Source: Micromonospora coriariae (GTDB lineage Bacteria > Actinomycetota > Actinomycetes > Mycobacteriales > Micromonosporaceae). Taken from it: 64,000 nt of DNA. Numbering within the stretch: the stretch's first letter is position 1; each line of letters starts with the position of its first letter. This document shows, piece after piece, positions 58,592 through 60,579 of the stretch. Below the pieces are notes generated by a model, which was not told where the DNA came from, did no database searches, and saw only the letters and a list, made by a program, of their open reading frames with translations. The position numbers and the translations under genes were made by a program. The DNA is taken from NCBI RefSeq assembly GCF_900091455.1, contig NZ_LT607412.1:1736001-1800000 (forward strand), in the 5' to 3' direction.

Positions 58592-59254
<663 letters not shown>

Positions 59255-59278
59255 CCGCCAGCCACCCGCACGACCACG

Positions 59279-59308
59279 ATGCCCGGCCGCCGAGAGGTGG
59301 CCGGGCAT
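59279..59308 (+). terminator. msrA terminator
   Basis: ATGCCCGGCC (59279-59288) and GGCCGGGCAT (59299-59308) form a perfect 10-bp stem with a 10-base loop, 25 bp after the msrA stop. It separates msrA from the leader transcript that starts near 59372. Confidence 0.75.
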
Positions 59309-59335
59309 TCCCGTCCGGCGTGTGATCGAAATCCG

Positions 59336-59365
59336 TTGCCGAGCCCGCCGGGGACTCGATAGCGT
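59336..59365 (+). promoter_or_regulatory. Candidate promoter of the rnz leader
   Basis: TTGCCG (59336-59341) and TAGCGT (59360-59365) are 18 bp apart, giving a predicted start near 59372, only a few bases before the extended Shine-Dalgarno sequence of the micro-ORF. Confidence 0.5.
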
Positions 59366-59371
59366 GGCGGT

Positions 59372-59596
59372 ACACGTGAAAGGAGGTGGTCCAGACTTGT
59401 ATAGCAATCGGACTCGTGAGGTGGCTGTCCGCTAGCCGCTGTCCTCGACAGTGATCGGTCCGCCGCGAGGCGGGCACCAGTACCAACGTCGAGACCGTGT
59501 GGCAGCGGTGCGGCGAATCCACGACAGCCACCCGACCCCCGGGGCGCCGGCCCAGTCCAGCCGGCCCGTGCGAAAGCGCGGAGCGCCCCGGGGGTC
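59372..59596 (+). ncRNA. Structured leader RNA with micro-ORF upstream of rnz
   Basis: Predicted transcript of about 225 nt between msrA and rnz. It starts just after a promoter-like pair, carries a 15-nt extended Shine-Dalgarno and a 12-codon ORF, then small hairpins (CTGTC/GACAG near 59440; CCGCC-GCGA-GGCGG near 59465 with a GNRA-type loop), and ends with a perfect 14-bp hairpin (59534-59547 with 59583-59596). The arrangement resembles an attenuator or a discrete small transcript. rnz begins 54 bp after the last hairpin. The boundaries are predictions. Confidence 0.5.
59397..59435 (+). CDS. 12-residue leader peptide MYSNRTREVAVR
   Basis: TTG-initiated micro-ORF preceded by GAAAGGAGGTGGTCC (59378-59392), which can pair with nearly the whole 3' end of 16S rRNA. 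The peptide is MYSNRTREVAVR followed by TAG; it contains no run of one amino acid that would suggest a classical attenuation peptide. An in-frame GTG at 59376 could start a longer 19-residue version, but the ribosome-binding site then lies inside the ORF. I regard the TTG start as likely. Confidence 0.5.
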   Translation: MYSNRTREVAVR

Positions 59597-59649
59597 GCTT
59601 CATCTGCCGGCGGCGGCCGGGCCGGTCAGCTCAGCCGGAGGAGAGCACC

Positions 59650-60579
59650 GTGTCGATGCGCGAGCTGGTGGTGCTCGGGACGGCCAGTCAGGCACCGACC
59701 CGGCGGCGCAACCACAACGGGTACGTGCTGCGCTGGGACGACGAGGTGATCCTCTTCGACCCGGGCGAGGGCAGCCAGCGGCAGCTCCTGCACACCACGG
59801 TCACCGCCACCGACCTGACCCGGATCTGCGTCACCCACTTCCACGGCGACCACTGCCTCGGTCTGCCCGGCACCATCCAGCGGCTCTCCCTGGACCGGGT
59901 GGCGCATTCGGTCGCCGTGCACTTCCCGGCCGGCGGCGCCGAATACTTCGCCCGACTGCGGCACGCCACCTCCTTCTACGAGACCGCCGAGCTGCGGGTC
60001 GAGCCGATCGAAGCCGACGGGCAACGGATCACCCTGGGGTGCGGCACGCTGGAGGCCCGCCGGCTGCGGCACCCCATCGAGACGTACGGCTACCGGCTGG
60101 TCGAGCCGGACGGCTACCGGATGCTGCCGGAGAAGCTGGCCGCGTACGGGATCGCCGGACCGGCCGTCGGTGAGCTGATCCGCGTCGGCCACCTCGACCT
60201 GGACGGACGTCGCGTCACCCGGGACGAGGTGAGCGTGCCCCGGCCGGGGCAGCGGTTCGCCTTCGTGATGGACACCGGCCTCTGCGACGGGGTCTACGCC
60301 CTCGCCGAGCACGCCGACCTGCTGGTCATCGAGTCGACGTTCCTGGAATCGGAGGCCGCGCTCGCCGCCGAGGTCGGCCATCTGACCGCGGCGCAGGCCG
60401 CCCGGGTGGCGACCGAGTCCGGGGTACGGCGACTGCTGCTCACCCACTTCTCCCAGCGGTACCCGGACCCTCGCCGGTTCCACGACGAGGCGCGCGAGCA
60501 CTTCGACGGCGACCTGATCATCGCCGAGGATCTGACCACCGTGCAGCTCCCACCACGCCGGGTAGCCTCGGCCGGGTGA
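59650..60579 (+). CDS. rnz: Ribonuclease Z (tRNA 3' endonuclease)
   Basis: Metallo-beta-lactamase-fold endonuclease of 309 residues that removes 3' trailers from tRNA precursors. The zinc motif HFHGDH (H63, H65, D67, H68) is intact, and FAFVMDTG and [10 protein letters not shown] supply further ligands. The GTG at 59650 has GGAGGAG six bases upstream; the in-frame open region upstream is leader. The stop overlaps the GTG of the acetyltransferase gene (GTGA). The upstream leader RNA may regulate it. Confidence 0.93.

Follow-up and report, generated by a model that had tools for sequence, protein, structure and literature searches.

The Ms_IGR-5 family has been filed as an sRNA since about 2013. 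It seems to be a small switch that is translated, contains a pseudoknot in a revised fold and has a wider range. We analysed a member in a 64,000-nt stretch of Micromonospora coriariae DNA (the window, to which unlabelled coordinates refer). The family itself has been described before; its translated frame, the revision of its fold and its wider range appear to be new, as far as the open-licence literature shows. We slightly favour, at little better than an even chance, the reading that the RNA is a ribosome-gated switch in which the act of translation, not the peptide, matters.

The RNA belongs to the Ms_IGR-5 family

Using cmscan, we found that positions 59372-59603 (+) match RF02471 (Ms_IGR-5) over the complete model (1-184), with 96.5 bits (E 2.3e-20) against a gathering cut-off of 45 bits. 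Nothing else in the 64 kb window scored above a cut-off, and the RNA therefore belongs to a known family, which Rfam lists as sRNA. Passages that mention the family describe an sRNA from a cold-stress transcriptome that IGR-5 overlaps in M. smegmatis (PMC10454040), an Ms_IGR-5 RNA seen by RNA-seq in S. lividans (PMC8079986), an sRNA transcription unit in S. avermitilis (PMC8780764), and ribosome-protected reads on the homologs of M. abscessus and M. smegmatis (PMC4974804); the authors of the last caution that footprints on sRNAs may stem from other RNPs. Neither the ORF, nor the H2, P3 and pseudoknot elements described below, nor a range beyond Actinomycetota was found in the open-licence titles, abstracts and passages naming Ms_IGR-5 that were searched. 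The features of the locus are given in Table 1.

Table 1. Features of the Ms_IGR-5 locus in the window
Feature	Position	Strand	Remarks
Promoter-like site	59336-59365	+	-35 TTGCCG 59336-59341; -10 TAGCGT 59360-59365; 18-nt spacer
Whole sRNA, RF02471 (Ms_IGR-5) member	59372-59603	+	cmscan 96.5 bits; fold z -5.95
SD1, GAAAGGAGGTGGTCCAG	59378-59394	+	17-nt complement of 16S 3' end; few nt from the putative RNA 5' end
Micro-ORF TTG...TAG, MYSNRTREVAVR	59397-59435	+	12 codons; stop 59433-59435; in the family, stop at core+15 and start at SD distance
Pseudoknot strand 1, GGACT	59410-59414	+	codons 5-6; covariation z 8.3, 0/10000
SD2, internal SD-like GAGGTGG	59418-59424	+	9 nt separate GAGGTG from the stop codon; putative anti-SD role
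H2 5' strand, GGTGGCTGTC	59420-59429	+	ORF codons 8-11; 10 bp in MFE; z 10.8
P3 5' strand	59430-59443	+	last codon and stop codon; z 15.8, 0/900
Hairpin, 7 bp, GCGA loop	59458-59475	+	lineage-variable; window fold
P3 3' strand	59501-59515	+	followed by conserved AATCC 59516-59520; MFE and covariation
H2 3' strand, GACAGCCACC	59523-59532	+	before terminator arm; MFE and covariation
Terminator-like arm	59533-59597	+	13-bp stem, two inner hairpins; window fold
Pseudoknot strand 2, AGTCC	59554-59558	+	apical loop of terminator arm; covariation
rnz (RNase Z)	59650-60579	+	next gene, judged outside the system

The RNA is encoded independently of rnz

The RNA lies in a gene-free gap of 395 nt (59255-59649) between msrA (58592-59254) and rnz (GTG start at 59650), in agreement with an earlier sequence-only reading of this DNA. 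The elements which that reading had listed were all present where it placed them, with corrections to the lengths of the SD and of the stem before rnz, and its interpretation was partly supported. It had considered a leader peptide tied to RNase Z. A leader controlling rnz in cis would require conserved linkage, and adjacency and co-direction are indeed found in Micromonospora-type loci; however, these are the only 4 of 227 loci with rnz immediately downstream, and the search located no rnz in the vicinity of the RNA in the remaining loci, save for one distant hit. Other groups have different neighbours (by heuristic ORF choice, with gene names and group labels read from the sequences): mycobacteria and their kin have a class-IV aminotransferase-like gene, a YgfZ-like gene and a conserved gene on the minus strand, Streptomyces-type loci have a PAS-type gene, and gyrA and ligA each occur in one deep group. 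In the window, the terminator-like arm and a separate rnz SD intervene. Given the scarce linkage to rnz and the RNA's own promoter-like site and terminator-like arm, a cis-acting rnz leader is very improbable. Leaders of either rnz or msrA were rejected, as the neighbours across loci do not support them. The RNA is, judged from its sequence, a stand-alone gene independent of rnz.

A promoter-like site and a 17-nt Shine-Dalgarno sequence

The promoter-like pair previously proposed is present upstream of the RNA, with a spacer of 18 nt (Table 1). Of 147 family loci, 81 have the motif TTG-N20..24-TANNNT ahead of the SD, compared with a mean of 2.65 in shuffles. The transcript probably starts near 59372, the first base of the Rfam match.

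SD1 pairs over 17 nt, with one G.U, with the 16S 3' end of the same genome, which reads ...CTGGATCACCTCCTTTCT; the tail segment opposite SD1 is ...CTGGATCACCTCCTTTC. Pairing with nearly the whole 16S 3' end had been claimed over 15 nt. The 14-mer AAAGGAGGTGRTCC has five copies in the 6.93 Mb genome, namely three antisense of the 16S genes, this site and one elsewhere, and a reversed-pattern control gave no match genome-wide. Within the window, the next-best anti-16S run was 13 nt, with wobbles. Because the 14-mer is so rare, the SD is not a chance string. The sole other non-rRNA copy of AAAGGAGGTGGTCC (L195; 5121840-5121853 of the genome, minus strand) is followed by none of ATG, GTG and TTG over the next 13 nt. 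In several loci of other phyla (L211, L216-L222, L238, L117 and L146), the SD seems to be directly preceded by a short inverted repeat, GGGNN..GGACCC, which might form a 5' hairpin or serve as an operator.

The reading frame is kept while much of the peptide varies

The TTG-started ORF of 12 codons was exactly as proposed in the sequence-only reading. Its GAGGTG core occurs in 70/70 RF02471 matches; the core is no independent proof in loci from our named-genome pattern scan, which demanded GAGGTGRC. We counted starts and stops in 142 distinct 5' segments out of 150 (L079, L087, L106 and L149 included). A stop was located at core+15, the fifth codon after the GAG of GAGGUG, in 136 of these (TAG 103, TGA 24, TAA 9). 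When one sequence was taken per 70%-identity cluster, the stop lay exactly at core+15 in 77 of 82 clusters, and a frame beginning with ATG, GTG or TTG was open through the core in register 0 in 64, compared with 4 and 7 in the other registers.

Canonical start codons were found 126 times in the SD window; 111 were in register, and 109 of these reach the core+15 stop. The 134 assigned ORFs are 12-15 codons long and start most often with TTG (58), followed by ATG (39), CTG (16), GTG (11), ATC (5), ACG (2), ATT (2) and ATA (1), the 26 near-cognate starts (CTG, ATC, ACG, ATT, ATA) being our own assignment. No start was assigned in eight segments (L056, L061, L062, L065, L079, L105, L117 and L146); in L117 and L146, a GTG lies just outside the start window used. 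A different frame runs over this core in L056, L061, L062 and L065; it stops at core+14, within one base of the usual position, and starts from ATT in L056 and from TTG in the other three.

Among 77 loci from the phylum scans described below, 62 have a canonical start and the core+15 stop (10-19 codons), nine end 1-2 bases off in another frame, and one lacks the core. The remaining five have the stop without a canonical start, and all five carry an in-frame ATT 5 nt after GGAGGTG. This set is not fully independent, because the stop was already contained in the training segments of the search model R1; seven of the loci (L216-L222) are also near-identical. An in-frame ATT 5-6 nt after GGAGGTG, with no canonical start, was seen in L041, L042, L045, L056, L249, L256, L257, L262 and L264. 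Such ATT starts recall IF3-sensitive starts such as that of infC.

A conserved short frame with an SD, as expected of a translated (dual-function) sRNA, is therefore present. As for conservation of the peptide, the frame and stop are kept and the N-terminal part (residues 9-12 from the C-terminus) varies widely. Since some lineages also use another frame, we read this pattern as selection on translation and termination rather than on the peptide.

Long-range helices and a pseudoknot overlap the frame

The predicted fold of 59372-59603 reached -127.2 kcal/mol (z = -5.95), and 0/200 shuffles were as stable. H2 (10 bp), P3 and the terminator arm all form in this minimum-free-energy (MFE) fold. 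The perfect stem noted earlier before rnz exists but comprises 13 contiguous base pairs (59533-59545/59585-59597) rather than 14, and the GNRA-type hairpins are there with GCGA and GAAA loops. Several relatives (e.g. L085, L093 and L102) have a T run after the terminator-like stem. Because the MFE fold pairs GGAC with GTCC of the SD in place of the pseudoknot, the evidence for the latter is covariation.

The family alignment kept 144 of 150 rows, 139 of them with the stop. The rows dropped were L079, which resembles a chance hit within coding sequence, L087, L106 and L149, whose 3' part is odd or truncated, and two duplicates. Covariation was assessed by strand exchange, in which 3' strands were swapped among one sequence per cluster. 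H2 gave z 10.8 (0/10000), or 13.3 (0/900) with bulges allowed, and the pseudoknot, between GGAC of codons 5-6 and GUCC of the terminator-arm loop, gave z 8.3 (0/10000). For P3, z was 15.8 (0/900), and the controls in the bulge-allowing run were at -1.6 and -0.6. Six control pairings, including the SD:ORF helix of the Rfam model (0.5), ranged from -0.0 to 1.4; four of the six are weak tests, because the SD involved hardly varies.

In a plain alignment of 42 sequences, H2, P3 and the pseudoknot together contained 77 double-change cells, compared with a shuffled mean of 25.5 (0/500), and their covariation score was 0.294 versus 0.123 (0/500). Double-change pairs numbered 9 versus 6.2 (5/500) and further pair types 28 versus 24.1 (2/500); these shuffle statistics keep shared descent. 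Sliding the partners by 1-3 columns lowered pairing from 85.8% to 26-40%, a comparison that favours the counted structure, which is the window's own fold plus the knot. In the pseudoknot, 91.9% of cells were paired, and its columns 53/201 used GC (11), CG (10), AU (5) and UA (4). Some H2 pairs fit poorly, with 24/42 sequences unpaired at columns 68/162 and 13 and 14/42 at 60/171 and 61/170, partly due to alignment shifts. Covariation analysis, which had been suggested as a check, thus supported H2, P3 and the pseudoknot. Judged from sequence, codons 5-6 and 8-11 of the ORF and its stop codon take part in these long-range pairings.

Among the phylum-scan loci (50 clusters, other phyla), P3 held with z 10.9, while H2 was weak, with z 3.4 and 3.7 against controls of -0.3 to 3.0 (composition 3.0, one cross 2.9). 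An earlier H2 control in these loci (z 3.3 against 3.6) was unclean, as it contains the pseudoknot strand. Plain folding of 82 loci left the SD unpaired with a mean probability of 0.38, and the 5' strands of P3 and H2 paired downstream with means of 0.51 and 0.62.

Two further pairings lacked covariation. The Rfam SD:ORF helix was pairable in 86.5% of cells with 0 double-change cells, showed no excess over shuffles and was absent from the window MFE; its SD strand is nearly invariant, which leaves the test little power. The local SD:GGAC hairpin H1 (z 0.0) likewise showed no covariation in a test of little power, though it occurs in the window MFE.

Distribution across genomes and phyla

At E 0.001, RF02471 matched 70 of the 396 genomes sampled from the phylum, once in each; the score exceeded the cut-off in 35 of them. 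R1, a sequence-only model of the 5' part of the RNA built from 40 sequences, matched 143/396 genomes, and 140 of these had a single match. The vague impression of similar strings in other actinobacteria, recorded in the sequence-only reading, was thus borne out, and conservation extends well outside close strains, with relatives in genomes titled as other phyla. Phylum names here are record titles, and the non-actinobacterial ones all belong to metagenome-assembled genomes. The named-genome pattern scan gave at least 120 stretches, 80 of them among the matches listed, and among the matches listed were records titled Acidobacteriota/Bryobacterales, Zixibacteria, Sumerlaeota, Deltaproteobacteria, Nitrospirae and Planctomycetaceae.

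Phylum scans with R1 (centre genome counted) gave 31/199 genomes around a Bryobacterales-titled centre, 36/118 around a Zixibacteria centre and 16/149, several of them weak, around a Planctomycetaceae centre. Deltaproteobacteria- and Nitrospirae-titled centres gave 3/198 and 3/148, low rates which indicate that R1 does not fire everywhere. L105 and several Planctomycetaceae-centred matches are weak and may be chance. RF02471 scored above cut-off in L102 (titled Zixibacteria, 55.9 bits), L242 (50.2) and L237 (45.8). The RNA of L115, titled Acidobacteriota, resembles Acidimicrobiia copies and probably lies on a misbinned contig, so such contigs do occur. In three Bryobacterales-/Acidobacteriia-titled loci (L096, L108 and L129), an rpmE-like gene (bL31 by sequence reading) starts on the same strand, 256-304 nt after the SD. 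A link to phages was rejected, as no match was found in a phage collection, and none in viral contigs with a stricter pattern.

A possible ribosome-gated switch and its alternatives

H2, P3 and the pseudoknot use letters of the ORF, stop codon included, so that the fold and translation would exclude each other. Frame, fold and independence of rnz are read from the locus and its relatives; ribosome gating and its output are what we infer. The idle RNA would fold shut. Once the SD captured a 30S subunit, translation could start, and the ribosome would open the helices as it advanced to the stop codon. When the stop codon occupied the A site, the distance from GAGGUG to the P-site codon would be 6 nt, as is normal for an SD; GAGGUG may then pair again with the 16S tail and hold the terminating ribosome. 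Meanwhile, the 3' strand GACAGCCACCCG, which resembles the 16S anti-SD, would stay free for a target or a nuclease; it could capture other mRNAs through their SDs, or the stability of the RNA could depend on whether this strand is exposed. In L096, L108 and L129 (Acidobacteriota-type), GAGGUG is kept and its likely paired strand is CGGCTGCCTC or CGGTTGCTTC rather than of the CACC type, which hints at a second role of GAGGUG beyond pairing, in loci found by a pattern that demands GAGGTG. If the ribosome is the ligand, the RNA would be a direct read-out of free ribosomes or of initiation quality.

Alternatively, the RNA might be a decoy whose SD captures 30S subunits and thereby lowers global or selective initiation, the ORF being a run-off. 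The long complementarity to the free 16S tail that a 16S decoy calls for is present (17 nt) and almost unique in the genome, and weak or near-cognate starts are frequent among the 134 assigned, the near-cognates by our assignment. Nevertheless, a decoy could do without a conserved stop, helices and a pseudoknot, and the single match per genome (in 70/70 and 140/143 genomes with any match) does not point to high dosage; we consider this reading unlikely.

We give little credence to the short peptide as the product, either as a micropeptide or as an arrest peptide. The assigned peptides do share E and V (134/134), A or T next (129) and T two before E (109). However, the invariance of E-V follows from anchoring the frames by GAGGTG, which encodes these residues, and the codons concerned also serve as paired strands. 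Residues 9-12, counted from the end, differ among the peptides, and the same core is read in another frame in some lineages. An ordinary non-coding, trans-acting sRNA with an incidental ORF would fit the Rfam classification and the transcription unit described for S. avermitilis in the passage of PMC8780764 on this RNA, but the conserved frame and stop and the SD complementarity to the 16S 3' end argue against it, and we regard it as equally improbable.

Comparison with other systems

Along with the ribosome-gated switch, we suggest a broader idea, held tentatively and with rather less than even confidence. The RNA would represent a ribosome-sensing class found in Actinomycetota, Acidobacteriota and Zixibacteria, with sporadic members elsewhere and mostly a single copy per genome, with the ribosome as the ligand that opens a pseudoknotted fold. 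Its members would combine a super-complete SD, often weak starts, a frame of 10-19 codons and an internal SD at the stop, with translation kept and not the peptide, and the alphaproteobacterial sRNA CC2171 would be their counterpart.

Extended SD pairing and non-canonical starts are shared with conserved, regulated sites in S. aureus, where, according to PMC13009471, a small uORF controls a downstream gene; the window RNA, in contrast, has no conserved downstream gene. It resembles the dual-function, peptide-coding sRNAs treated in passages of PMC5521070 in being an sRNA with a short, probably translated frame, but differs in that the frame is kept while much of the peptide is not, and in that coding and folding strands coincide. 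Neither Ms_IGR nor CC2171 is named in the main text of PMC5521070.

Membership of the window RNA in the CC2171 family (RF01867) was rejected, as it scored 14.9 bits (E 0.66) against a cut-off of 75 bits, and RF01867 had no match in 15 other-phyla loci at E 0.5. CC2171 likewise has a 5' SD with a near-complete 16S complement, and it appears to be another RNA built on this principle. It differs in its ORF, an open frame of 24-26 codons starting with [V/M]SHC in five of six loci, and in having a helix at the ORF start; in the Rfam model, the start region pairs with the strand just before the terminator. Two of the six CC2171 loci scored above the RF01867 cut-off, three scored 68-70 bits and one had no match. 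In L283-L287, which are alphaproteobacterial plasmids or chromids, CC2171 lies from position 1501 onward and is filed as an sRNA.
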